This document shows positions 1 to 30,279 of a stretch of 31,479 nt of DNA, one piece after another. The notes under the pieces are model-generated. The model saw only the letters and a program-made list of their open reading frames with translations, was not told the DNA's origin and did not search any database. Source of the DNA: a virus. The stretch is taken from positions 1 to 31,479 of the IMG/VR virus record IMGVR_UViG_3300024514_000017. One strand, given 5' to 3'. A program made the position numbers and the translations under genes. Position 1 is the stretch's first letter. Every line of letters starts with the position of its first letter.

Positions 1-3000
1 AATGCCTCGGGCAGTAGTATATGTAAAATCTCCGCCGCTGATTTCAGAGTCTAAATATTGCTGGTTTGGTCTAAAACTACCATCGCTGGTACTCTTACGG
101 AAGATAATAGTATCTCCGCTGTTTACATCTACGTATGCAGGAATGACTATAGGAGTATCAGTGCTTCCGTCTCCTACAAATGTCTGCATCTGTGCATCTG
201 GATTTGTAATTTCATCGGTTGCATTTAATGTTGCTAACTTTGCGGCAACATCAAGAGTTTTGTTAGCCACTTGTACTTGTTTGGCTGTTAGTAATGCTTC
301 TGCATCGTCTAGTTCGCCTTGGGCAATGGTCAAGTCTGAAATTAACTGTGTTTCCTGTGCTTGATTTTCTGCCAATGTAGTTTGTAAAGCAAAGTATAAA
401 GGATCGCTTGGGGAGGTAATTTCTAACTGTGCTTGTAAGTCAGCAATAACTGCCTGTGTATCAATAAGCTCTTGTGTTAGAGAATTAACTGTTATTTCTT
501 TAGCGTCTTTATCTGCTTGTAGAGCAATCTCTTCAGCAGTATAAACTTCTAATAATGCGGCTGCGGTATTATATGCAGTTTCGGCACTGGTGTAAACGTC
601 ATAATTAATGTCATCAATTCTTACACCATTAATATAAACGTTAATCTGTTCTCCATCTGCAGGAATATATGGCAGATTATAAGAACGTGTTGTACCATCT
701 GATACAACTAAAAAGTCTGTATAATCTTCATCGAAGTCGTCCCAGCCAGCAGTAAACCATGGAAGTCCGTCCCAACCAGAACTTATTTCAAATCCTAGCC
801 CTGTAATTTCAACGCCGCCGTAGTCAACTCCAGACATTAACTGTCCTAGGTCTTTACCAATCTGTCCTGTTATTGGACTATAGTAATATTGAATTCTATC
901 TGCGGCTGTAAGAAGTCTTATATCTTTAGTATAAGTTACAGTAATATTAGAACTGCCAACTTCTGCCGCAGTAGATAACTCTAATATACCAATATAACGT
1001 GTATATCCTAACGAAGTATCTTTCTTATTATAAACTGTAAAATCACTAGACAATAATTCTTCGTTAGATACTGTTACCGCAGTCTTGTTTGTTCTAATAT
1101 CAATAGGCCAGTTTAACTGGAACAATGTTCTAGATCCTGTACCATCGAATGTCTGCGACATTGTAATAGAACTTACTTGATACTCCGGAATAATTCTGTC
1201 AAATTTAACACCAATGGTGTTTGTTCTTGTAACGCCTTCTCCAAGAATTGCTGTAGCCTTGGCTGTTACTCCGCTTGCGCCAACTGATCCGCTAATAACT
1301 ATAGTAGGTGTAGTTAGGTAACCTTCTCCTTTAGTTTCTACTGCAATCTTTGTTACTGATCCTTGTGAAATATACGCTTTAGCAGTGGCTTTAGTTTTGC
1401 ACACACCAACTACTTCAACAGCAGGTGCGGCTTGGTATCCTGAGCCACCGTCAACAACAACAATTTCTGTAACACGATATCCAGCATGATCTAACCAATC
1501 ACTGTATGGTGCATTTAATATTGCAGATGAGTTATATGTAATTACAGAATTATTGACTTTTACATCAAACGGAAGAATTTTTCCTTCTTCAGTATCATAA
1601 CGTGCTGGAAGGTCAAAGTCTGTAGTTCCTGTATATGTATTATCAGTTGCTGTGTAATTGCTGATAAATTCTCTAACTTTAGTTCTGTAAGGTTTTACTT
1701 CATTAATGTATTCTTCGTAACTAGCAAGATTGTCATTTTTATAATTAACTTTTTGTTTTAATTCGCCAAGGTTGTGTTGACTCTTAACGAACGAAGTCTT
1801 AAATGCCCAATCAACAAATGTTTGTTCTGAGAATACGTAACGCAGACTTGCAAAGAATAACTTATTATACTCTACTTCTAAATCGTCTATTAATAAATTA
1901 TTTTTAATGACATCGAGAATAATTCTTAATTCTTCTTTTGGTTCGTCGTCGTATACATCGCCATCATAGGTAAAACTATCAAATCCAATATTACTATTTG
2001 TAAACTTGTACAAATTACTATTGAATTGGATTGTTCCGTTTTGACGACCTACTGTTGTGTAATTTAAAGAAATGTTATCTGTAACTAGTGTATTAATTCT
2101 TTCTAAAAGAATCCAACCACCAGATTTTTCATTTTTAATTTTTACTAAATCGCCTACAGCAATATCTATGAAACTCATTTCATATGAGAAGTCAACTAAA
2201 TGGTCAACTTTAGTAAATGCGCTGTAGCCATCGGCATACCAGTCGGCATAATCCCAATGCTTGGTTACATCATAAATTTGAGTTTTTGATCTGAACCAGT
2301 CGCCTTTGACACTATCCCAAATGTATAAACTCCATTTATTAGCCGCTGTTTCATCATTGTTGACTAAAATTGTAAATGGTCTAATATACAATGTAGTAGA
2401 ATCTAAATAATCTCGGCCAAAGTTATCAACTGTTACACCAGTAACTTCGCCAATAGTGTTAATCTTTGCTGTTAATTTTACGCCAGTGCCTGCACCATTA
2501 ACTATAATTTCTGGAGCAATTTTATATCCACGGCCTGGATTTGTAACTACAACACGTACAATCTTTCCTGCTTCTACTACCGGAACAGCAGTGGCTTGAA
2601 TAAATCCTGTAGAGCCAACAAAACGTATTTGACTTTGACTGTCGATTGCAATATCGTACTTTCCTGATAATTCAGTCGGAGGTTCTTCTTTAGAGTTTAA
2701 TGCTGTAAAATCAAAGTCGTCAATAATTGCACGTTGTATTAATACAGAGTTAACACGCTCTATAAATTGTTTTAGAGCTTCAAGTCTGTTAACAAACATA
2801 CCTTGACGAGGTTTGTTTAGAATACCGTATTTCAATTTAGCAGGCAATCTAGGATCTGGCACTTCTGCGCCGTTGATATCGTAACCGATTAAACTGTCAA
2901 ACCATTTCTGTTCAACATACTTGTTAAGTTTTTTATTAGTGTTTCCTTCTGCTAATAACTGATAATGTGCATGAATATTGTTTTCAGTATTATTCACTGT

Positions 3001-6000
3001 CCAGTAACGAACATTTAGTGCAACATCTTTGCCTGTGATTAATCCTTTGCAGTTCACTAATGCAAATTGATTTTTACCTAATAAAGTAGCATACTGAATG
3101 CCCTGACCTTTAGGATTGGATATTAAATTTGCAACATCGCTGGCAGACGTTTTTCTAAAGGTAACGTCAGGTACTGTAGTTTTATTTTTAACCCAGAAAT
3201 AATAAGTGTTGGTAAATGTTTTGCTTATAGTATCATATTTTTGTTTAATACTGTATGCAAGGTCGCCGTACTTAGATGTTCCGCTAATACCTAATGCTAG
3301 TCCAGTTTCAGTATCTGCTAACGAATCCCATTCGCTCGGTGTGTATTCAGATTCTACCCATTCGTAGATATCCACAGTGGAATCATTGTAGACATTATTC
3401 CAAGTGTTGGCTTTATATACAATAGATCCTTGTAGGGGATTAGCAAATTTAATAGTGCTGAGATCCCACCATAATTTACCAACATGAGGTGTTGTCCATC
3501 CCATTAGTAAATCTACTACTACAGATTCTACACCAACTGTATATATTGCTGGATCGTAGTATGTTTTGAATGTTAATTCTTGTTCAGCGATTCCTAAAAT
3601 CTTTCCTGTAATTGGATCGATAAAATCTAAGTTGGCAACTACGCTGTTTGTTCTTGTATTATATAAGAACAATGATTTAATCTTAGATAAGTTAACACTA
3701 GGTTCCGGTTCGCGGAACTTAGTCCAAGATTTAGTGCTTCCAGAAAACTCATGGAATGATCCGTTAATCGATGTTTGATCGTTAATATAAATTTTTCTTG
3801 CTACAACAAACGCATCGCCGTAGTTAATTCCAGAAACTGCTGTTGGTTCTAATTCGTCGCCGATTAAGAACTTGGCGTCGTATTTTTCATAAACACGAAC
3901 ACTGCCAGTAAATTCTTGTTCTTCGATAAATGTAGTTACATTTAAATCAAATGTTGTTTCGCCGGAGTCAATTATTGTTTCAATTGTTTGACTACCACCG
4001 TAACTATAAATTACTAATCTATCATTGTCTAGATTAAATCTTACTCTATATCCAAATTTTTCACTGTCTTGGTTTAGCGGACTTGTAATAAAATCATCAG
4101 CAACGTATGTTGAAGCATTTAATTTGAATAGTGCAACTGCTCCTTGATTAGATGCTACGCCTGAATACCCTGGTACACCAACAGCAACAAAAGTTGAATC
4201 TTTTGTAATTGCTACAGATGTGCCAAAATTACTACCTGTTTCTAAAACTTCTAGTGATGTAAAATCGCTAACATTGATTTCTTGTACTGTTGTAAAGGCT
4301 GTTCCTGCTAAACGAACAACTAAAACAGATTCGTCATTTTTAGATATTGCTACAATATTGCTCGAACTAATATCTATGTCAGTTATACTAATACCTGTTG
4401 GTAGAGTTAGTGTTGCTAGGAAAGTGTTTGTTGTTAAGTTATACGCAGACACGGCTGCTGGAACTGAAGATCCATTGCCTTTAGAAACAATGTATAATAC
4501 ATTTCCATTTACCTGTATCTTCTGTCCAAAATATTGGAACTGTGTTGGTGTAGCACTTTGAATTACTCTTGTAAATTCGTAACTGCCGTAGATATTTTTT
4601 GTGTACTGTGCCACATAACCAATATCCACTTCTGTAATGATTGGAGGATCTGTTGGTAGAGCACCTGGTTCAGATGTAATACCGTAACGCGGTGCGCCTA
4701 CAAATAAGTAAGATCCGTCGGCATTAAAGCATAAACTATCACCGAAACTTCCGTTAGTGTCGGTAAATGTTTCTGTCGATAATGGGAAAATAGAATCCTG
4801 GAACGCCCATCCAAATGTCGATGTAGGTCTGCTGTAGAACAAAACTGCATTTGTTGATGTTGCTGCCAATACTGTTTCTGTGTTATCAACCGCAATAACT
4901 TTTCCAAAATAATTTTCTTCACTAGTGATTTTTGTGCTAGTGTATGTTTTAGCAAACTTCCAGACACTCCAAGCATTGTTGACTCCGTCTGTCCATACTA
5001 TTTCATTATTTTTCTTAGCAGAAACAGGCAAGGAATTTAAATCGTTAATTGACGATAGTCGTTGTGGAGTAAATTTAAACAAATTAATGTTTAAAAATAA
5101 ATTAATTTCTGCAATTGCCGCAGTATCTAAATTAGCAGGCATGGTTATTTCAAACCAGTTTAAGCCTGTATCTAATACTTGTTTAATGCCTTCTAACGAA
5201 GCATTAGTATTATTAATTCCAATATAAGATCCAACTTCTATATCTACAGGTAGTTTAGTATTAAGAGTAATTCTTAAGTTAGTACCTTCTGATACACTCT
5301 TAACAGACTTAGCGAAATTAGTAAATCTATAAACATTCCAAGAACTGTTATCAAATCCTAACCAGAAATATGTACCTTCTACAAGATTTTTAATATTGTA
5401 GTTGGCGAATTCATCTTTAGAAGAAATAATGTAGTCAACGTCTTCATAGTTAACATAGCCCGCAGTTCTAATATATTCTTTCTGAGATGCTAGTACTGGG
5501 AACGGCTCGTGTGTATAGTCGTCAGGTTTTAAGTAAACTTGATCCTGAGTAATTCTATAAACAAAATCGTTCACTCCAAACGGAACTGCATTTACTAATT
5601 CAATTGGCTGTGGGTTAATTAAGAATTTTTCTTCATTAAGAATATATTCTACTTCCTCGTAGCCACCGCTGGCACCGTATTGTCCTAAGCGAATTGCCCA
5701 CTCTTCAAAGAATTCTAAACTATCTGTGTTTGCATAGTTTAGTGCGTCAAACAATTTAGATAAACTGTTTTGTGTACCCTTTTCTTGAATCATACCTTGA
5801 TAGAACTTGTACTGACTTACATCATCATTAATAATATTCTCAAGGTATTGGCGCTTTTGATAGCCGATTAAATGTTGAGCAAACTTTTGTTGGTCAACAT
5901 CAAAACTATCTGTATCTAAATCATAAAAATCTTCAAACTGTGTAGCACGATAATCCCAGTTAGGAATTAATTTACTTTGTGGTCTTCCATCTAGTCTGTA

Positions 6001-9000
6001 CCAATTATTGTCGTCAAACAATTCTGTACCTGGAACATTTGTTCTGGCACTATAATAAAATTCTTTGTATTTTACAGTTTCACCTAAGGCATAGTCTTTC
6101 CATGCTGTCCATTCTGAAACAACTGCACGGTCGTAGACAAACCCTGGAATACTAAAGTCGCCTGTCCAGTCGCTAATTTTATATCCAACTACTTTAATAC
6201 GTTCTTGTCTATAGCCCTGTACTTGATCGTAGATAATGTCATTAAAAATTGTAGTGTCATCTAAAATTAAAACGTGTTCTTTTTGTACAAGATTCAATGT
6301 AGCATGATATAAACCGTCTGCTGTATTTTTTGGTCGCAGACTAAAACTATTATTTTCACGAATGCTATTAGTAAAACTTGGTTCTAATTCTACGCCGTCT
6401 TGTTTGAATAGGCTATATTCATAGAAAGGATCGTAAATGCTGTCAACTACAGCATAATCTTGTCTGTAAATCAATTCTTCTGCGGCAGGACTTACAGTAA
6501 TAATCGAACCTTCGGCCCAGTTTTGTGTAGTCCAAAACGCAAACTCTTTGGCACTGGTTTGCCAGTCTGTGACTGTTTTTAAATTAGGATTAAAATATTC
6601 AAATGTGAAACCTGCATCTGTTAGATATTTTCCGTAACCTAATAAGAAATCAACGACTTCTTGTACTGTTCTTAATTCTGCGCCGTAGTGTAATGTGCTT
6701 ACAGATTTTTCAAAATTTCTTCTTATTACAATCTGACGTCCGCCAACAATTGGTAGATATGGCAGTTTAACAAAATACTTTGATTCAAATGCCGTAGTAC
6801 TTGTATGCGCTACAGTAACTCTAAAATAGTTTTGATCTGTCTTAACAATTTGACCTTTGCTGTAGAATTTATTTGAATTCCAGTCAATATAAGTTTCAGA
6901 GATTCCGCCCACATTGATTATCGGGTCCGATACTGTATCCAGAGCTTTTTTATACTTAAATTCTGGTATAGATTTATCGTAACCTTTAATAACAAAGCCG
7001 CTGGTTGTTTTTTCAATAATTACACCGCTATAGTTAATAGTAGTAACTGGTGTGCTAGAGTTTAAAATAATGTTATAGTTTTCCTGAGGAATGAATACAT
7101 TGCCTTCATTCAAAGGACTACGACTATCTAAAATTAATTTAAATTTTTCTTTAGTAGTAAAGCCGGCTAATTTGCTGGAAATTTTTACTTGTAAAGAAGT
7201 TAAGTCTGATTTAAAATTGTCAAGTATTGCAAACGATTTGCTAATACCATAGTCTGACAAATAGTTTACTAGTCCGCTGGTAAACACTCTTGTGCTGTCT
7301 TTAACAGTACTTGGGAATACCATATTTGTGGTATTAAATCTCAAGTTACCTGTAGGAAGTTTATAAACAATTTGTCCTGTTTGATCTCTGTACTGGCGAA
7401 TTCTATCAAATCCTAAAGCAAACATTTTTGCAGGACGTAATAGAGTAAGTGCAGTAATTAAAGAAAATGCGTAATGACTGCTACGTCTCCACGCTGTTTC
7501 AATAGGTGTTTGATCGCCAAAAGTGAATTCTTTTTCTGTAAAGACTGAAACAAAATCTGAAACTAGTCCAACAGTTAGTGGGTCAATTAATTCTCCTGAC
7601 GCATTAACAGGTACATATTTTAACAATTCAGGTCTAGCATATAAACTGTTTCGTGTTGGTAACTGACCCGGAGCTCTTACAAGGCCTTCTGCTAGGTCAT
7701 TCCATAGTAATAAATTATCTTTAGTATAAGGTGCTGGACCGTAGGTAGTCTCCCACCATTTTGGTTTAATACTGAATCCTAACATCTCCCATGGATGTGT
7801 GTGCGGACGATCTGTATCGTAGAAATATTTGTATATTCCTCTCCAGAAACCTGGCAACGGATTTCCTTGCGGGTCAGCAAATGACTTATAGTTATAAGTA
7901 AACGGCTCGTTTCTATCAAAGAAACTGTGTTTAGTATAATCGTCGTTGATTAAACTAGTCCAGTTTAAGAACTCTTGTCTTAGTGTAGAATTCAATTCGT
8001 CAACAGTAATATCGGCATTTCTAAAATATCCAGTCATTAATGTATCAAGATTAAACAATTCTGGATTGTAACGAATTTTAATATTATTATAGATACGTGT
8101 TTCTAATTCTAGTAATAACTCGTCTCTAAATTCATTTGGCTCATCTGGTTTTGAAAATGCAACAGTAATACTACCGTCGTGACCTTGTATAACTTTTGTA
8201 GGAGTAACATAAGTGTTATCGACAAAAATCTTTGGTTCAAACAATGGATACAATCCTAACTTAGTAGGAGTCGGTGGAACACAACAGCCCGCAGTTTGAT
8301 CGTATTGATAAATTTTTAATATATCGCCAGTTTGTATTGCAGATAATATTCTAACAAAACTTGTATTGACGAAAATGTAATCTCTGCCGTGCAGTAAAAG
8401 ATCATCGTTGACATATACCATTACTGCTTTAGAACTTGCTTCGTCTAAATTAAAATCGAATGTCAGTGGATAATCAGTGAAGGAATTATCAATAACTTCT
8501 TGTTCATAGACAAAATTAACTCCAAACGGAACCATGTCGCTTAGATAAAATGGAGACTCGACTGTTTTATCTTTGGTTACTTCTTTAAGCACCAAATCTA
8601 AATGTGTACGAGTTATACCATCGTAACCATATGTAGTTGCAGTTCTAATTAAATTACGTTTGAATTTAGAATATTCGTCTCTGGCATAACGCAAACTCTT
8701 AATAATGTTAACGTTTTTATTTGTAAAACTATACATGATTGGTGCTAAAGGTCCAGAATGCTGAACTATCTGTGTACCATATCCTGATATGTTTCCTAGG
8801 TCGCGCAGATTACTAATGCCTGGAATGTTACCTTCAAACTTAACAAAATTTTCTGAAATAGTTTTTAAATGATTAGAAATTTGACCTAAGGTCAAATCTT
8901 CTAAACTTAAATTTTGCGGGTTGCTTTCAAGATTACTTGGGAATTTATAATATCCGATGTTATCTAATTTAGTAGCAGAAGACATTGTTTCTATAACTAC

Positions 9001-11193
9001 AACATCGTCTACAGTTAAATCTGCGGTAAACTGAATGTAAGCAATACTATTTTGTCTGTAAATTTCATAATCTGTACGTTTCTTATTGTTAACAAAAACC
9101 TTAACATCTAAGTCGTCTAACATTCCGCTCTTTGCATAGACGTCAATAGGGAATAAATTTAACAAATCTGCCTGGACATTGATTTGTCGTATAACCGGTT
9201 GTTTTGTTTGAAACTCAGATTTGACCCATCCATTAACAAGTCTATAGTCTGAAAGACTATCATTAATTCGAAGATACCCTCGGTCAAGCACTCGTGTGAT
9301 AAGTTCAACTTCGCCTTGATAGGTAAATGAATCTTTTTGTAAATTGAAGTCAAAAACAATATCTCCAATATTACCAATGTTTCTATAAGAAATATTTTGT
9401 GTTAAAATATTATCATATGTGTCGCCTGGCTGGTAACTAAAAACTTTAGATCCGATAAATGAAGAACCAATATAAGTTGTTCTATCTCCAAAACTTGTGG
9501 CGTTTACATCAACTACATCAAACAATGGTGCAACATTAACTGCTGTTTTGTCCTGACTCTCTACCCACGCACCACTAGAATAGTGGAACATTTTTCCTTT
9601 AAAATTGTCGCCGTCTGTAACTAGTACAGTTTCACCGTCAATAGGAGTAGTATCTGTTTCTTCTAATAGTGTAATTCTCTTAACACCAAGGTGTGTAATA
9701 AATCCAATTTTAAAAATACGACCATTTACAATGGCATCAGTATCAGCGGCAAACAGAACACGCATGCCTTCTAGTAATAATACACCGTCAATATTATAAC
9801 CTATACTACCTTCAACAGTCGAAAACGCATCTTTAGTATACAAGTCAACTAAATCAACGCTACGCTTTGCCTGACGTCCAAAATTCCATAATTGTAAGTC
9901 TGGTTTAAATTCAATAATAGGTCGTTTAGCTCTAGCAGTCTGATCTATTTCAACAGGTTGATTATTATATGTTGCACTGGCTTCTATGACTGAACGATGG
10001 AACCAGCGGTTATATCTCGACCAGTGATTTCTATCTCTGCTTGCTCTGCTGATAGTGATATAATCTTTTTCCGCAGGATAGTTACTATTAACATCAAAAC
10101 CTTGTGTATCAAAGTTTTCTGTATCAAATTCGATGTCGCTGTCTAAGGCAAAAGATGATGGAGTTTGTAAATCAAACTCTGCAATTAATCTAATTTTATC
10201 ACCTACACCTTCAACATACCAGTTGTCTGTAGCATACTTCGCCGGAGTAACATTACCTATAAAATAAACTTTCATACCGTTGGACAACTCTGTTGTACCG
10301 TCAATATTATATGTTTTCTTTCCTAGTATTTCTTTTTCGACATCGATAAATGTATTCTCGGCAATATCATAAATTTTAAAGAATCCAGATGTATTAATAT
10401 TGTTAGCACTAACGTAATATAATAAATCTGGTGCATCGTCTGGAACTGTAAAAGTAATAGTTCCCACTTCTACATAAGGAGTATCGCTGATAACCCCATC
10501 AGTGTAGATATAAGAATCGGCCATATCTCTGATTGTCTTAAATGCGATTGCATTACCTGGACAATTAATATCAAACTTATAAGTTTGACCTCTATACAAT
10601 TTTAGACTTGGGTTGCGAGTTAATCCGTCTGGACTGAAAACATAGGCAATATTGTCAACATCGCTGACAGTAGTCACAGTATATGTGCTAATAATACTAC
10701 GAGATTGTCCTTTAACTGCAATAGACTGCGGACCTTTTGGTAGCCAGTAATATTCTCTATAGTTAACAAATTTGTCCCAATCTATATTAGGATTCCAACT
10801 ATAAAACTCTTGACTGTTAATCTTGCTATGGTCTACCGCAGAAGAATTAAAATATACAAGTTGGTTGATATAGTCGTTATAATCACTGAAGAATGTTACA
10901 TTCTCTAAACTATCTTTGACAATAATTGCTGGCTCAAGTTGGTAGGCAGAACGTTCTACAGATATTTCATCAACATAGTTGTCCGAAGGCACATAGGCTT
11001 TGCTATTTTTTCTACCAATATACGCATTAATTTTATCAACATTGCCAACAGAAATTAACTGATCTAATGTTCCGTTTAAAAATTTCTGATTGGTACTAGT
11101 TCTAAAATATCTAGGTAAAAAATTAACCGCGCTTCTAGTTGTATCTGTACCGATTGGCAGACTTGGTTCTTTTTGATCTTTAGTAAATGCCAT
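1..11193 (-). CDS. Giant virion structural protein (C-terminus outside window)
   Basis: I read every in-frame triplet from the ATG at 11191-11193 to base 1 and found no stop, so at least 3,731 codons are present and the frame is still open at the edge. A Shine-Dalgarno AAAGGAC (11199-11205) overlaps the gp6 stop and fixes the start. The N-terminus (MAFTKDQKEPSLPIG) leads into a long aromatic-rich region with motifs such as DYNDYINQL and WNPNIDWDKF, which I associate with very large structural proteins of marine T4-like phages. Residues about 2085-2470 hold FG-GAP-like repeats. Two GxGY beta modules lie near 2885-2930 and 3245-3300. A long coiled coil lies near 3535-3660. Short 'V-Y-V-N-N' fibre-type strands recur, for example near 699, 924 and 3518. 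It follows gp6, the slot of gp7 in T4, but I see no specific gp7 signature. A role in the baseplate periphery or fibres is inferred. Confidence 0.85.
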   Translation of the reverse strand, partial: MAFTKDQKEPSLPIGTDTTRSAVNFLPRYFRTSTNQKFLNGTLDQLISVGNVDKINAYIGRKNSKAYVPSDNYVDEISVERSAYQLEPAIIVKDSLENVTFFSDYNDYINQLVYFNSSAVDHSKINSQEFYSWNPNIDWDKFVNYREYYWLPKGPQSIAVKGQSRSIISTYTVTTVSDVDNIAYVFSPDGLTRNPSLKLYRGQTYKFDINCPGNAIAFKTIRDMADSYIYTDGVISDTPYVEVGTITFTVPDDAPDLLYYVSANNINTSGFFKIYDIAENTFIDVEKEILGKKTYNIDGTTELSNGMKVYFIGNVTPAKYATDNWYVEGVGDKIRLIAEFDLQTPSSFALDSDIEFDTENFDTQGFDVNSNYPAEKDYITISRASRDRNHWSRYNRWFHRSVIEASATYNNQPVEIDQTARAKRPIIEFKPDLQLWNFGRQAKRSVDLVDLYTKDAFSTVEGSIGYNIDGVLLLEGMRVLFAADTDAIVNGRIFKIGFITHLGVKRITLLEETDTTPIDGETVLVTDGDNFKGKMFHYSSGAWVESQDKTAVNVAPLFDVVDVNATSFGDRTTYIGSSFIGSKVFSYQPGDTYDNILTQNISYRNIGNIGDIVFDFNLQKDSFTYQGEVELITRVLDRGYLRINDSLSDYRLVNGWVKSEFQTKQPVIRQINVQADLLNLFPIDVYAKSGMLDDLDVKVFVNNKKRTDYEIYRQNSIAYIQFTADLTVDDVVVIETMSSATKLDNIGYYKFPSNLESNPQNLSLEDLTLGQISNHLKTISENFVKFEGNIPGISNLRDLGNISGYGTQIVQHSGPLAPIMYSFTNKNVNIIKSLRYARDEYSKFKRNLIRTATTYGYDGITRTHLDLVLKEVTKDKTVESPFYLSDMVPFGVNFVYEQEVIDNSFTDYPLTFDFNLDEASSKAVMVYVNDDLLLHGRDYIFVNTSFVRILSAIQTGDILKIYQYDQTAGCCVPPTPTKLGLYPLFEPKIFVDNTYVTPTKVIQGHDGSITVAFSKPDEPNEFRDELLLELETRIYNNIKIRYNPELFNLDTLMTGYFRNADITVDELNSTLRQEFLNWTSLINDDYTKHSFFDRNEPFTYNYKSFADPQGNPLPGFWRGIYKYFYDTDRPHTHPWEMLGFSIKPKWWETTYGPAPYTKDNLLLWNDLAEGLVRAPGQLPTRNSLYARPELLKYVPVNASGELIDPLTVGLVSDFVSVFTEKEFTFGDQTPIETAWRRSSHYAFSLITALTLLRPAKMFALGFDRIRQYRDQTGQIVYKLPTGNLRFNTTNMVFPSTVKDSTRVFTSGLVNYLSDYGISKSFAILDNFKSDLTSLQVKISSKLAGFTTKEKFKLILDSRSPLNEGNVFIPQENYNIILNSSTPVTTINYSGVIIEKTTSGFVIKGYDKSIPEFKYKKALDTVSDPIINVGGISETYIDWNSNKFYSKGQIVKTDQNYFRVTVAHTSTTAFESKYFVKLPYLPIVGGRQIVIRRNFEKSVSTLHYGAELRTVQEVVDFLLGYGKYLTDAGFTFEYFNPNLKTVTDWQTSAKEFAFWTTQNWAEGSIITVSPAAEELIYRQDYAVVDSIYDPFYEYSLFKQDGVELEPSFTNSIRENNSFSLRPKNTADGLYHATLNLVQKEHVLILDDTTIFNDIIYDQVQGYRQERIKVVGYKISDWTGDFSIPGFVYDRAVVSEWTAWKDYALGETVKYKEFYYSARTNVPGTELFDDNNWYRLDGRPQSKLIPNWDYRATQFEDFYDLDTDSFDVDQQKFAQHLIGYQKRQYLENIINDDVSQYKFYQGMIQEKGTQNSLSKLFDALNYANTDSLEFFEEWAIRLGQYGASGGYEEVEYILNEEKFLINPQPIELVNAVPFGVNDFVYRITQDQVYLKPDDYTHEPFPVLASQKEYIRTAGYVNYEDVDYIISSKDEFANYNIKNLVEGTYFWLGFDNSSWNVYRFTNFAKSVKSVSEGTNLRITLNTKLPVDIEVGSYIGINNTNASLEGIKQVLDTGLNWFEITMPANLDTAAIAEINLFLNINLFKFTPQRLSSINDLNSLPVSAKKNNEIVWTDGVNNAWSVWKFAKTYTSTKITSEENYFGKVIAVDNTETVLAATSTNAVLFYSRPTSTFGWAFQDSIFPLSTETFTDTNGSFGDSLCFNADGSYLFVGAPRYGITSEPGALPTDPPIITEVDIGYVAQYTKNIYGSYEFTRVIQSATPTQFQYFGQKIQVNGNVLYIVSKGNGSSVPAAVSAYNLTTNTFLATLTLPTGISITDIDISSSNIVAISKNDESVLVVRLAGTAFTTVQEINVSDFTSLEVLETGSNFGTSVAITKDSTFVAVGVPGYSGVASNQGAVALFKLNASTYVADDFITSPLNQDSEKFGYRVRFNLDNDRLVIYSYGGSQTIETIIDSGETTFDLNVTTFIEEQEFTGSVRVYEKYDAKFLIGDELEPTAVSGINYGDAFVVARKIYINDQTSINGSFHEFSGSTKSWTKFREPEPSVNLSKIKSLFLYNTRTNSVVANLDFIDPITGKILGIAEQELTFKTYYDPAIYTVGVESVVVDLLMGWTTPHVGKLWWDLSTIKFANPLQGSIVYKANTWNNVYNDSTVDIYEWVESEYTPSEWDSLADTETGLALGISGTSKYGDLAYSIKQKYDTISKTFTNTYYFWVKNKTTVPDVTFRKTSASDVANLISNPKGQGIQYATLLGKNQFALVNCKGLITGKDVALNVRYWTVNNTENNIHAHYQLLAEGNTNKKLNKYVEQKWFDSLIGYDINGAEVPDPRLPAKLKYGILNKPRQGMFVNRLEALKQFIERVNSVLIQRAIIDDFDFTALNSKEEPPTELSGKYDIAIDSQSQIRFVGSTGFIQATAVPVVEAGKIVRVVVTNPGRGYKIAPEIIVNGAGTGVKLTAKINTIGEVTGVTVDNFGRDYLDSTTLYIRPFTILVNNDETAANKWSLYIWDSVKGDWFRSKTQIYDVTKHWDYADWYADGYSAFTKVDHLVDFSYEMSFIDIAVGDLVKIKNEKSGGWILLERINTLVTDNISLNYTTVGRQNGTIQFNSNLYKFTNSNIGFDSFTYDGDVYDDEPKEELRIILDVIKNNLLIDDLEVEYNKLFFASLRYVFSEQTFVDWAFKTSFVKSQHNLGELKQKVNYKNDNLASYEEYINEVKPYRTKVREFISNYTATDNTYTGTTDFDLPARYDTEEGKILPFDVKVNNSVITYNSSAILNAPYSDWLDHAGYRVTEIVVVDGGSGYQAAPAVEVVGVCKTKATAKAYISQGSVTKIAVETKGEGYLTTPTIVISGSVGASGVTAKATAILGEGVTRTNTIGVKFDRIIPEYQVSSITMSQTFDGTGSRTLFQLNWPIDIRTNKTAVTVSNEELLSSDFTVYNKKDTSLGYTRYIGILELSTAAEVGSSNITVTYTKDIRLLTAADRIQYYYSPITGQIGKDLGQLMSGVDYGGVEITGLGFEISSGWDGLPWFTAGWDDFDEDYTDFLVVSDGTTRSYNLPYIPADGEQINVYINGVRIDDINYDVYTSAETAYNTAAALLEVYTAEEIALQADKDAKEITVNSLTQELIDTQAVIADLQAQLEITSPSDPLYFALQTTLAENQAQETQLISDLTIAQGELDDAEALLTAKQVQVANKTLDVAAKLATLNATDEITNPDAQMQTFVGDGSTDTPIVIPAYVDVNSGDTIIFRKSTSDGSFRPNQQYLDSEISGGDFTYTTARGI

Positions 11194-24130: not shown

Positions 24131-24580
24131 ATGTGCATGTCGTGGCACTATCAAAATGTATTAGTTGAAGAAATACCCGAAGGCGTTATAGGCTTTGTTT
24201 ATCTCATCACTAACAACCAATCTGGACAGAAATATATAGGCAAAAAACTAGCACAGTTTAAGCGTACAAAACCACCACTCAAAGGCAAAAAACTCAAAAG
24301 ACGTAGCACAGTAGAAAGCGATTGGCGCGAATATTGGGGCTCATCTGAGAGATTACAAGCAGACGTCCACGCACTAGGTCCAGAAAAATTCACAAGAGAA
24401 ATACTTTATTTTTGCAAATCCAAGGCAGAAATGTCTTATCTAGAGGCAAGAGAGCAGTTCGAACGTAGGGTTTTAGAAACTGACGACTACTATAACGGTA
24501 TTATTAATGTTAGAGTAGGCGGATCAAATATACTAAGACAGCGTTTATTAGAACAAGCACAGGCAAAATCAAACGGTTAA
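24131..24580 (+). CDS. GIY-YIG nuclease-like protein (Seg-like)
   Basis: 149 residues. GFVYLI (21-26) and KYIGKK (34-39) are the two signature strands of the GIY-YIG fold. They are followed by a basic segment (KRTKPPLKGKKLKRR), a DWREYWGSS motif and a helix with AREQFERRVL, which may supply the catalytic arginine/glutamate. This fits the stand-alone GIY-YIG-type phage proteins related to Seg homing endonucleases, though no separate DNA-binding domain follows. It could be a homing enzyme or a housekeeping phage nuclease. An alternative start at 24137 (MSWHYQ) is equally possible; no clear ribosome site is seen for either. It is the last gene of the rightward block and is followed at once by the structured non-coding gap. 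Confidence 0.75.
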   Translation: MCMSWHYQNVLVEEIPEGVIGFVYLITNNQSGQKYIGKKLAQFKRTKPPLKGKKLKRRSTVESDWREYWGSSERLQADVHALGPEKFTREILYFCKSKAEMSYLEAREQFERRVLETDDYYNGIINVRVGGSNILRQRLLEQAQAKSNG

Positions 24581-24585
24581 TGGCT

Positions 24586-24717
24586 AGCGCAGGCTAAATT
24601 CGTGCGCTCTATACCTGGACCTCGGGTCGCAGGGACGGAATTCTCTTGCCGTTAAGAGTACTCAGCAACTATCCTTAACAGGACGAGGATCGCAAATTGC
24701 CGCGGTTTTGCTGTTTT
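24586..24717 (+). ncRNA. Candidate structured RNA downstream of the GIY-YIG gene
   Basis: A locally GC-rich stretch with successive hairpins: AGCGCA/TGCGCT (24586-24591 with 24603-24608); CCTGGACC/GGTC-G-CAGG with a TCG loop and one bulged G (24614-24633); CTCTT/AAGAG (24643-24647 with 24654-24658) or, as an alternative, GTTAAG/CTTAAC (24651-24656 with 24674-24679); and GCAAA/TTTGC (24692-24696 with 24707-24711) followed by TGTTTT. It contains no plausible open frame. It could be a 3' UTR structure, a small RNA or a degraded intron relic. It matches no RNA family I can recognise; the group I intron core motifs were not found. Confidence 0.4.
24692..24717 (+). terminator. Possible weak rightward terminator
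   Basis: GCAAA and TTTGC form a short stem with a 10-base loop followed by TGTTTT. The stem is only 5 pairs and the T-run is broken, so it is a weak candidate for ending transcription from the gp47-gp46 block. Confidence 0.3.
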
Positions 24718-25023: not shown

Positions 25024-26114
25024 TTAGAAAAAGGGTAATCCTGATTTCTTAGTAGTTTCTAAATTCTCTTTGATAATATTCGATATGATTTCACGATCTT
25101 CATAGGATAATGCAAATGCGTCATCTATGGTGATGCTACCTCTCATATACCAGCACAATTTAAACAATTCGGTTCTTATGGACTTTGCTTCTTTATCTAG
25201 CCCCTCAACTACTCTTAGTGCGTCTTCGAGTGTTAGGCTGAAGAGCTTTACGCGAAAAAATTTGAAGCGTCTAGTCCTATAGGAGTTTCAAATTCAGCAG
25301 GAGCACCTTGAGCTTGCTCTTCTGCTGTAGTTTGAATTTTAAACGACGGCATTTGAAACTTAATGCGTTGTTTTTCCAAGTGATCGATGATTTTAGTATA
25401 AAATTCTTTGTCAGCATTATCGATAAACTCTTTAATAAATGCTGGATCACTTACTTCGCCTTCAGGCGTAACAACTTTGACTAATCCATTGGCCACTGAT
25501 CTCATGGTAATTTCAGTTAATGCTTTAAAACTCTTATTAAATTGAGCAATCTTTTGTTCTTCTGTTAGTTCTTGACTGTTAACAATAGTAAAAATTCGTT
25601 GTTCTTCTAAACTTTTTAAAGAACTTTTAGTAAATTCTTCATAGGATAATGGACGTAAAAATGCAGTTAATTCATCATTAATTCGAACTTCTGGATCAAA
25701 TGTAGCATCTAACAGTTTATCTAACGCTAATCGTAGGTCAGTAGTATACGTTTTTGTTTCTGATATGTTTGGAATAGCAATATCTACATCAATTTGTTCG
25801 CCATATGTTGCAATACGAATAGCAATTAATATAGCATCAATATCAATACTAGGAATTGCCCAGGCATTTTTAATATTAGGCATACAACTTTGAATAACAT
25901 CAACAGTACTTTGACCATTTAACAATGCGTCTGGTGTTTTAATAGAAATTTCATCTCTAGCAGTCATAGCATAAACTGGAAACTCCATATTTTGTGTAGG
26001 TTCTAACGTGCCTGGTGGATAAAAATTACCAGAACTAGGCAAACGAACATAGAGCTTCGGTTGTCTAAAGTACTTCTTCAACGGGTTTTGCGGTACTGCT
26101 ACTTGATTTTCCAT
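25024..26114 (-). CDS. Predicted -1 frameshift product of the gp26-type gene (long form)
   Basis: Reading shifts from the gp26-type frame into the -1 frame at T-TTT-TTC (25260-25254), two codons before the normal stop (the TAA at 25250-25248). The extension then runs 76 codons to a TAA at 25026-25024, giving about 363 residues (287 + 76). The extension has regular protein character: LFSLTLEDALRVVEG, then ELFKLCWYMRG, a LSYEDREIISNII helix and the end NLETTKKSGLPFF. I know this kind of ending from T4-like tail proteins annotated in the gp26/gp51 region. The -1 frame is closed by a stop at 25288-25290 and has no ATG or GTG before residue 36 of the extension, so it cannot easily be a separate gene. 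By analogy with the G/GT chaperones of lambda, a short and a long form would load the tape measure encoded next door. Confidence 0.7.
25248..26114 (-). CDS. 26: Baseplate hub/tail assembly protein gp26-type (short form)
   Basis: 288 residues with the hallmark segments of the T4 gp26 family: KLYVRLPSSGNFYPPGTLE near the start, FPVYAMTARDEISIKTPDAL, the helix VDVIQSCMPNIKNAWAIPSI and DIDAILIAIRIATYG. The family is needed for baseplate hub assembly in T4. The C-terminal half is helical (KSLEEQRIFTIVNSQELTEE...). A GGAG ribosome site lies at 26124-26127. The gene is alone on the minus strand between convergent gp46-block genes and the divergent tape-measure gene. In lambda-like phages a gene immediately before the tape measure encodes its chaperone; this neighbourhood, with the frameshift, suggests the same role here. 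Confidence 0.85.
   Translation of the reverse strand: MENQVAVPQNPLKKYFRQPKLYVRLPSSGNFYPPGTLEPTQNMEFPVYAMTARDEISIKTPDALLNGQSTVDVIQSCMPNIKNAWAIPSIDIDAILIAIRIATYGEQIDVDIAIPNISETKTYTTDLRLALDKLLDATFDPEVRINDELTAFLRPLSYEEFTKSSLKSLEEQRIFTIVNSQELTEEQKIAQFNKSFKALTEITMRSVANGLVKVVTPEGEVSDPAFIKEFIDNADKEFYTKIIDHLEKQRIKFQMPSFKIQTTAEEQAQGAPAEFETPIGLDASNFFA
25254..25260 (-). other. Slippery heptamer T-TTT-TTC (candidate -1 frameshift site)
   Basis: In the gene's frame the codons are AAT-TTT-TTC-GCG-TAA. A simultaneous one-base backward slip re-pairs both tRNAs on TTT-TTT and continues with CGC-GTA-AAG. A 5-pair stem TCTTC/GAAGA (25244-25240 with 25227-25223) starts 9 bases downstream and is the only local stimulator I can see. 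Confidence 0.65.
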
Positions 26115-28569: not shown

Positions 28570-30279
28570 ATGAGTTGGAAAAGACATTTCTCTCCAGTAA
28601 CAACAGGCAACGTTAGCCCGATATCCGGCGCAGGCGGAAAGCCTGGTCCTGCACGATCCAACTATAGTTCCTATCTTCCAGATGTTTACACTGGTAGTCC
28701 AAATCGTGTTGAGCGTTATATGCAGTACGACACCATGGATTGGGACAGCGAAGTTAATGCCGCATTGGACATTCTAGCAGAGTTTTGCACACAGAAAAAT
28801 AAAGAAAACGGTACACCGTTTACATTACAATTTAGAAATCGTGCTACAAATTCTGAAATTAAAATTTTAAAGGAATACCTACAACAGTGGACTAAGTTAC
28901 AAAAACTTGATACACGTATGTTCCGTATTGCACGTAACTTGTTCAAATACGGCGACGGATTCTTTGTACGCGATCCAGAAACACAAAAATGGTATTACGT
29001 TGATCCGGGTAAAGTTGTAAAGATTATTGTTAACGAAAGCGAAGGCAAGAAGCCAGAACAATACGTTATCCGCGACTTAAACATTAATTTACAGGATTTA
29101 GTTGTAACACAGATTAATCCTAATACACAAAATCAACAGCCTGGTGGTGCCGCTTATACACAAGGCGGCAGCGGTGCTCGCGGTATGACAGGATCATATC
29201 CTCAGCAGTCAGGAACACGTTTTAGCAAAAGTCAAAATGAATTTGCTATTGATGCTAAACACGTTGTACATCTTAGTCTAAGTGAAGGCTTAGACAACAA
29301 TTATCCTTTTGGTAATTCGCTGTTAGAATCTGTTTTTAAAGTTTACAAACAGAAAGAATTACTGGAAGATGCTATTATTATCTATCGTATTCAACGTGCT
29401 CCAGAGCGTAGAATTTTCTACATTGACGTAGGCAATATGCCTAGTCACTTGGCCATGAGCTTTGTTGAAAGAGTTAAAAATGAGATTCATCAAAGACGTA
29501 TTCCTAGTAGTACAGGCGGTGGCAGTGCTATTGATAGTGCTTACAATCCGTTGTCTATCAATGAAGACTACTTCTTTCCACAGACAGCAGAAGGTCGTGG
29601 AAGTAAAGTTGAAACGCTACCGGGCGGTACTAACCTGGGCGAAATCGACGACTTAAAGTATTTTACTAACAAGTTAATGCGAGCTCTACGTATTCCTAGC
29701 AGTTACTTGCCTACAGGCGCAGATGACAGTCAAGCGGCATTTAATGATGGACGTGTAGGTACAGCATACATTCAAGAACTACGTTTTAACAAATATTGCG
29801 AGCGTTTACAAACGTTAATGATCAGTACATTTGATACAGAATTTAAATTATTCTTGTATAACAAAGGTGTAAACATTGACTTTAGTTTGTTTGATATTCG
29901 TTTCCAAAGTCCACAAAACTTTGCCGCATATCGTCAAGCAGAGTTAGACAATCAACGTATCAGTACTTTTGCACAGGTAGTAGCATTGCCATTTATTGCT
30001 AAACGGTTTGCACTAAAACGTTTCTTAGGTATGACAGACGAAGACTTAGCAGAAAACGAACGTCTGTGGAAAGAAGAAAGCGGTATGGCCAAGTCTAACG
30101 CAATGGATGCCGCAGGAGAATTGCGTACAGCAGGTGTAAGCCCAACGGGCATTGCCGCAGATGCTAGTGCTATGGCAGGAGAAACACCAGCACCCGAAGG
30201 TATGGCACCTGAAGCAGGAGCAGAAGGCGGTGCGCCAGCACCAGGTGCCGCTCCCGCGCCAGCCGCTCCACCAGCATAA
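28570..30279 (+). CDS. 20: Portal protein gp20
   Basis: Dodecameric ring at the head vertex through which DNA is packaged and ejected. Strong portal signatures: YLPDVYTGSPNRVERYMQYD, DWDSEVNAALDILAEFCTQ, the 'clip/stem' helices, then YRIQRAPERRIFYIDVGNMP and EIDDLKYFTNKLMRALRIPS. At 569 residues it is slightly longer than T4 gp20 (524). The extra length includes a glycine/glutamine-rich loop (about 190-220) and an alanine/proline-rich tail (about 535-569). gp20 is a common marker gene for marine T4-like phages. It starts 12 bases after the tape measure ends; its stop is 8 bases before the next gene. Confidence 0.95.
   Translation: MSWKRHFSPVTTGNVSPISGAGGKPGPARSNYSSYLPDVYTGSPNRVERYMQYDTMDWDSEVNAALDILAEFCTQKNKENGTPFTLQFRNRATNSEIKILKEYLQQWTKLQKLDTRMFRIARNLFKYGDGFFVRDPETQKWYYVDPGKVVKIIVNESEGKKPEQYVIRDLNINLQDLVVTQINPNTQNQQPGGAAYTQGGSGARGMTGSYPQQSGTRFSKSQNEFAIDAKHVVHLSLSEGLDNNYPFGNSLLESVFKVYKQKELLEDAIIIYRIQRAPERRIFYIDVGNMPSHLAMSFVERVKNEIHQRRIPSSTGGGSAIDSAYNPLSINEDYFFPQTAEGRGSKVETLPGGTNLGEIDDLKYFTNKLMRALRIPSSYLPTGADDSQAAFNDGRVGTAYIQELRFNKYCERLQTLMISTFDTEFKLFLYNKGVNIDFSLFDIRFQSPQNFAAYRQAELDNQRISTFAQVVALPFIAKRFALKRFLGMTDEDLAENERLWKEESGMAKSNAMDAAGELRTAGVSPTGIAADASAMAGETPAPEGMAPEAGAEGGAPAPGAAPAPAAPPA

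Follow-up and report, generated by a model that had tools for sequence, protein, structure and literature searches.

The window analysed here is a 31,479-nt stretch of virus DNA (positions 1 to 31,479 of IMG/VR record IMGVR_UViG_3300024514_000017) and carries a gp26-like gene whose minus-strand 3′ end reads AAT TTT TTC GCG TAA, raising the question of whether all ribosomes finish at this stop codon or some slip into the −1 frame to make a second, longer protein. A preliminary description of the sequence had proposed such slippage, and the elements on which it built are present: a slippery heptamer T_TTT_TTC separated from TAA (25250-25248) by the single sense codon GCG, and beyond the heptamer a −1 frame open for 76 codons (Table 1). 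On sequence grounds, we consider it very likely that this gene specifies a T4 gp26/gp51-family tail assembly chaperone made in two forms by −1 slippage. The 0-frame protein scores 33.5 bits against Pfam PF12322 T4_baseplate (cut-off 24.5), placing it in that family, and its PHROG match is phrog_150 (baseplate hub). An AlphaFold2 model of this product (pLDDT 85.5) has as its best match in BFVD a T4-like baseplate hub assembly protein (E 6.4e-22), and a PDB fold search with the same model gave no significant match among solved structures. BFVD also lists larger uncharacterised proteins from other large phages, Erwinia Special G and Ralstonia RP12 and RSF1 (E 5.5e-7 to 9.2e-6), which may hold a gp26-like domain.

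Table 1. Positions of the gp26-like gene, its recoding elements and neighbouring features in the window
Feature	Position	Strand	Basis
gp26-like gene, 0-frame (short) product, 288 aa	25248-26114	−	PF12322 T4_baseplate; phrog_150
Slippery heptamer T_TTT_TTC	25254-25260	−	In frame across relatives
−1 frame extension, FF then RVKLF...GLPFF	25024-25260	−	Stop at 25026-25024
Hairpin 5′ arm, downstream of heptamer	25237-25247	−	Folding, register counts
Hairpin 3′ arm, register S3	25199-25209	−	Folding, register counts
Candidate tape measure gene, 789 aa	26188-28557	+	Place, length variation, RaK2 annotation
Portal protein gp20	28570-30279	+	PF07230 Portal_T4
SegE-like GIY-YIG homing endonuclease gene	24131-24580	+	PF19835
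Polynucleobacter-1 RNA (Rfam RF01718)	24582-24716	+	119.3 bits, gathering score 37

We examined conservation of this arrangement in two sets of uncultured relatives from IMG/VR. A scan with the 0-frame protein provided the window-type set, the best 80 of 126 relatives (42-100% identity, nine identical to the window protein), and T_TTT_TTC stands in frame in all 80 of these loci. Counted from TTT, the stop lies three codons on in 69 loci and six in 11, and the −1 frame is of equal length throughout except in L045, where the contig runs off. Reduction by k-mer similarity left 56 loci, 55 of them with a complete extension. A second scan, from P-SSM7 gp26, provided a cyanophage-type set (best 80 of at least 600 loci) with the heptamer in 79 of 80; leaving out L175 (no heptamer), duplicates, and L133, L173 and L176 (which run off) gave 64 distinct extensions. 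The Phe-Phe pair at the slip site is encoded as TTT TTC in every non-redundant heptamer-bearing gene (56 of 56 window-type and 64 of 64 cyanophage-type), compared with just 1 of 9 and 2 of 70 other Phe-Phe pairs in the same genes. Away from the site, 543 of 654 Phe codons in window-type genes are TTT. Eight of the 64 cyanophage-type loci have AGT, TCA or TGA instead of an Arg codon after the heptamer and yet keep its final C, so that an Arg codon alone does not explain the conservation.

In the window's own sequence, openness of the −1 frame is modest evidence, because 52 of 20,000 shuffles of the extension remain open over the same length, as do 15.7% of 76-codon stretches drawn at random from the window, coding frames among them. 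Judged by sequence comparison, conservation across relatives is decisive for the reality of the extension. The 55 complete loci, the window's twin among them, align without gaps over 78 columns, and across the 56 non-redundant loci the −1 frame contains no stop in 3718 codons while the other two frames contain 352 and 423. Pooled pN/pS of the extension is 0.27 in the −1 frame against 1.07 and 1.98 in the others, and pN is below pS in 38 of 38 pairs of window-type relatives whose extension DNA is at least 70% identical, pairs that have members in common and are therefore not independent. The extension evolves under purifying selection when read in the −1 frame and is, as the preliminary description had read it, a conserved protein; the alignment of relatives that it had suggested as a check finds the heptamer, the −1 frame and codon-level constraint all kept. 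An AlphaFold2 model of the extension is all-helical (pLDDT 89.7); a PDB fold search with this model found nothing significant among solved structures, and Pfam and PHROG scans with the window extension alone gave nothing useful.

The same arrangement extends to cultured phages. We examined 17 named phages, each carrying a single gp26-like gene in the stretch retrieved (one PF12322 copy per whole record was checked in 15, all but phiWae14 and Asswx_1); T_TTT_TTC is present in 14: Phosso, Atu_ph07, PA5oct, Hallingskeid, Vibrio 2.275, RaK2, PBECO4, XaC1, XbC2, P-SSM7, Moby, V09, phiWae14 and Asswx_1. Two others have variant poly-T sites, T_TTT_TTG in RL2RES and a run of seven T in XacN1, and a further five loci, retrieved with the V09 and PBECO4 proteins and in part near copies of those phages, keep Phe-Phe-Arg in the −1 frame. 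Only GG32, of the Ackermannviridae, has neither the heptamer nor a poly-T variant. The arrangements that the preliminary description had named as contrary to its proposal, an extension in frame or persisting without the heptamer, occur in the loci examined only outside the window's group. One is this Ackermannviridae case, where the GG32 protein led to 15 loci, ten sharing at least 96% identity with it, and every one retains the extension and a junction ATT TTC ATT TAA with no classic heptamer; conservation of this junction makes another recoding route, or re-initiation, likely there. In this Ackermannviridae group (L194-L208 and L094), the longer string ATT TTC ATT TAA TTT TTG is kept in 15 of 15 loci. 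The other is L175, a cyanophage-type contig in which gp26 and extension share one frame (about 3700-3900) across a different junction without a heptamer, and which may be a natural fusion or else an assembly error.

Most window-type loci carry a hairpin 3′ of the heptamer. Folds of this region in the 55 loci are on average more stable than those of dinucleotide shuffles, with a mean z of −3.99 and 42 of 55 loci at −2 or lower; nine loci folded singly span −0.01 to −7.37, and the window itself reaches only −1.34. The 5′ arm is nearly constant in position (alignment columns 12-21, 13-20 or 14-24), and the 3′ arm is found at columns 74-83 (36 loci), columns 37-44 (8 loci) or columns 52-62 (5 loci), the last being register S3 of the window's group, where 11 of 11 pairs are standard in all 5 loci; six of the 55 loci fit none of the three registers. 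Within the assigned groups 94-100% of positions are paired, versus 22-67% when the 3′ arm is slid by 1-3 columns, counts that are descriptive because the registers were drawn from a few folds and then counted. Synonymous codon choice in the main-register stem is strongly skewed at four of the six codons tested and weakly at two: AGG is used in 34 of 36 loci, CTT in 35 of 36, TTG in 33 of 36 and GCC in 36 of 36, against 21/293 (7%), 139/915 (15%), 120/915 (13%) and 99/512 (19%) elsewhere, with two of six loop control codons also deviating, more weakly. Covariation in this register is slight: both sides have changed in 4 cells, a number that 13 of 500 shuffles attained, and the percentage of paired positions there is no better than in shuffles. 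Cyanophage-type loci have a further putative stimulator, a Shine-Dalgarno-like element 6-22 bases upstream of the heptamer in 54 of 64, an element absent upstream of the heptamer in 52 of 55 window-type loci; the upstream Glu codon is GAG in 52 of 64 cyanophage-type loci versus 391 of 1352 elsewhere, and of the 56 of these 64 loci that were folded, 27 fall below z −2 against simple shuffles. As the loci are related, all p-values for these stimulators are too small. The hairpin with its shifting 3′ arm would serve as a naturally occurring test case for the evolution of a frameshift stimulator.

These observations bear on how the two frames could be joined. A sequencing error in the window was an alternative raised from the outset, to which an assembly error or a decaying gene remnant can be added; the single in-frame fusion among 80 cyanophage-type contigs speaks in favour of this group. 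The group is excluded, with a residual probability that is practically negligible, because many assemblies and cultured phages show the same arrangement (80 of 80 IMG/VR loci, these being the best 80 of 126, and among named phages 14 of 17), with an extension under purifying selection. Re-initiation or coupling after the gp26 stop, yielding the extension as a separate small protein, gains from an ATG in the −1 frame that overlaps the stop or directly adjoins it in Phosso, Atu_ph07, PBECO4, V09, Moby and RL2RES, from an ATG at codon 5 from the slip in 43 of 64 cyanophage-type loci, and from records (Phosso, PBECO4, P-SSM7, V09) that annotate the extension wholly or partly as its own ORF. The window itself conforms to the earlier claim that the extension has no usable start: the −1 frame is closed 37 bases upstream of the 0-frame stop (read in L001, identical to the window there), its codons between that upstream stop and the slip hold no ATG, GTG or TTG in the window translation, and the first candidate is a TTG about 30 codons into the extension. 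Between the upstream stop and codon 20, 15 of the 55 window-type loci and 16 of the 64 of cyanophage type lack all three of these codons, and a start with a Shine-Dalgarno-like match occurs in only 3 of the 55 and 2 of the 64. Re-initiation also leaves conservation of the heptamer unexplained, and we regard it as improbable.

Transcriptional slippage, in which RNA polymerase would add a U within the T run and produce a mixed mRNA population, would shift the frame in the right sense at a run of six T, which is, however, short for such slippage. TTTTTTC is kept in 159 of 160 IMG/VR loci of the two scans (best 80 each) despite TTT being the common Phe codon, so longer T runs seem to be avoided, XacN1 with its seven T being the exception, and the downstream hairpin and the cyanophage upstream GAGG fit slippage by the ribosome. 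This explanation is, in our judgement, less probable still than re-initiation. The simplest account has ribosomes slipping by −1 on U_UUU_UUC, with a hairpin downstream; re-initiation and transcriptional slippage fit worse.

The relation to T4 is seen in the second T4 protein of this family. T4 gp51 is a PF12322 protein over residues 1-201 with 48 further residues, and a profile of gp51 C-termini from 11 T4-type phages aligns with the −1 extensions of cyanophage, KVP40-type and other phages at an hhalign probability of 97.9% (score 63.8, highest of 50 shuffles 17.3). Six of the ten loci found with T4 gp51 entered alignment A3, leaving out near copies (L179-L181) and L186; alignment A4 comprises 28 of the 64 cyanophage-type extensions, P-SSM7 and five other named phages. 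In L186, a T4-type contig, the gp51 frame (3001-3747) is interrupted about halfway along, through a mutation or an error in sequencing. All 34 A4 extensions match PHROG 634, 'baseplate hub assembly catalyst', as does T4 gp51, and the 31-aa 'gp51' of the P-SSM7 record falls within the −1 extension in the same frame. Because the cyanophage/KVP40-type extension is homologous to the gp51 C-terminus, T4 gp26 and gp51 in all probability correspond, as judged from these alignments, to the two products of one frameshifting gene. Window-type extensions are clearly related to those of nine named giant phages (score 118) and resemble the gp51 C-terminus weakly (score 19.7, highest shuffle 17.4), as they do the cyanophage-type extension (20.9, highest shuffle 15.7); a cyanophage-type profile matched none of the 4 window-type contigs and none of the 4 named giant phages searched, setting the two extension families far apart. 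Copy number agrees with this correspondence: over 22 records PF12322 occurs twice in T4 and once in each of 19 others, with no match at E 0.01 in two records with a divergent gp26. The window-type extension profile finds a single place in 12 of 13 records and, in PA5oct, one extra weak match of 18 residues. CfP1, PM2, AS-gz and Riv-10 carry gp26 and gp51 as separate genes, as T4 does, and T4 has no heptamer at its gp26 end where the window has one gene with a heptamer.

Taken together with the published T4 assignment and with gene content, from which the chaperone role is suggested, these data are consistent with a mechanism in which most ribosomes would end at TAA to release the 288-aa short form, while a fraction would move back by one base on T_TTT_TTC, where both Phe tRNAs would pair again with UUU, an event that the hairpin beginning 4-6 bases past the heptamer would promote. 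Slipped ribosomes would add 76 mostly helical residues to make a long form. In phage lambda, gpG and gpGT are a short and a long form with a common N-terminal domain, generated by a −1 shift near the end of the short frame at a heptamer different from T_TTT_TTC. The window gene is like this pair in its shared domain and in the place of its predicted shift, and differs in that no sequence relation is shown and the candidate tape measure gene is divergent here and directly downstream in lambda. On this reading, T4 gp51 and lambda GT would correspond to the long form and T4 gp26 and lambda G to the short one; the comparison with lambda G/GT was already drawn in the preliminary description and is backed by the gp51 match of the cyanophage/KVP40-type extension and by PF12322 copy number, with the window-type match weak. 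The extension would bind the tape measure protein and the shared domain would help load the tail tube around it. In T4 and close relatives, frameshifting would have been replaced by two separate genes, a direction we offer as a proposal. A possible wider scenario, put forward tentatively, makes −1 frameshifting ancestral in the T4 superfamily, with T_TTT_TTC and a hairpin whose 3′ arm takes at least three registers in the giant branch, gene duplication in T4-type phages, and a different recoding at ATT TTC ATT TAA in the Ackermannviridae.

The observation in the preliminary description is real and its reading largely right, but the idea is less new than was thought there, because T4-like chaperone genes had already been identified. 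As paraphrased in papers that cite them, Vladimirov, Gautam and Davidson (Virology 2022) describe gp26/gp51-type proteins as T4-like tail chaperones, some with poly-T −1 signals, and a passage of PMC12846349, citing them, treats poly-T −1 signals as known in T4-like chaperone genes; with assignment and signals in print, the kind is known. The accessible text of PMC12846349 also proposes a −1 shift at GTTTTT in the tail assembly chaperone of Pakpunavirus Adele, likewise a poly-T site with an extension usually annotated as a separate hypothetical gene, in another phage family and at another slippery motif. PMC10885494, paraphrasing Vladimirov et al., states that in place of frameshifting certain T4-like phages have one short gene together with a longer gene that is a fusion. 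In a 2010 review (PMC3004832), gp51 is listed as essential, its function unknown. For cyanophages and marine vibriophage, passages of Sullivan et al. 2010 (PMC3037559) report a gp51 that is about 20% of T4 length, lacks the first ~200 residues and C-terminally resembles the others; this short gp51 corresponds to the −1 extension seen in P-SSM7 and relatives. Those passages treat it as a reduced separate gene, and the word 'frameshift' is absent from the main text. T4 gp26/gp51 and the oddly short cyanophage gp51 are thereby joined as products of a single gene with probable frameshifting, the state in most phages sampled here, and annotation of giant and marine T4-like phages needs correction, since several records split the halves into separate genes or miss the extension. 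The open-licence literature searched contained no paper on a frameshifted chaperone in these giant phages; as far as searched, the giant-phage branch, the re-registered hairpin and the exceptions (Ackermannviridae and one in-frame fusion) are new.

The gene lies in a T4-like region, flanked by the portal gene to one side and, to the other, by SbcC/SbcD-like and baseplate genes. The preliminary description had placed the gene at the border of the tape measure gene, as in lambda-like phages; a long gene does adjoin it, in divergent orientation, and it is a candidate for the tape measure gene by its place, its length variation (69 loci out of the best 80 of 126 have an ORF of 635-970 aa there) and its counterpart in the corresponding place in RaK2, annotated as similar to tape measure protein. 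The candidate protein has no PHROG or Pfam match, and profile comparison is not significant, with probabilities under 1% both with T4 gp29 (score 20.8, reversed control 21.8) and with the large gene 3′ of gp26 in four other phages (22.1, reversed 18.3); those four downstream genes give a weak hint of similarity to gp29 (probability 10%, score 34, reversed 21). An open frame of at least 3731 codons occupies positions 1-11193 of the minus strand, beside the baseplate genes, and runs off the window edge. The RF01718 RNA sits between the SegE-type homing endonuclease gene and the gp26 extension.
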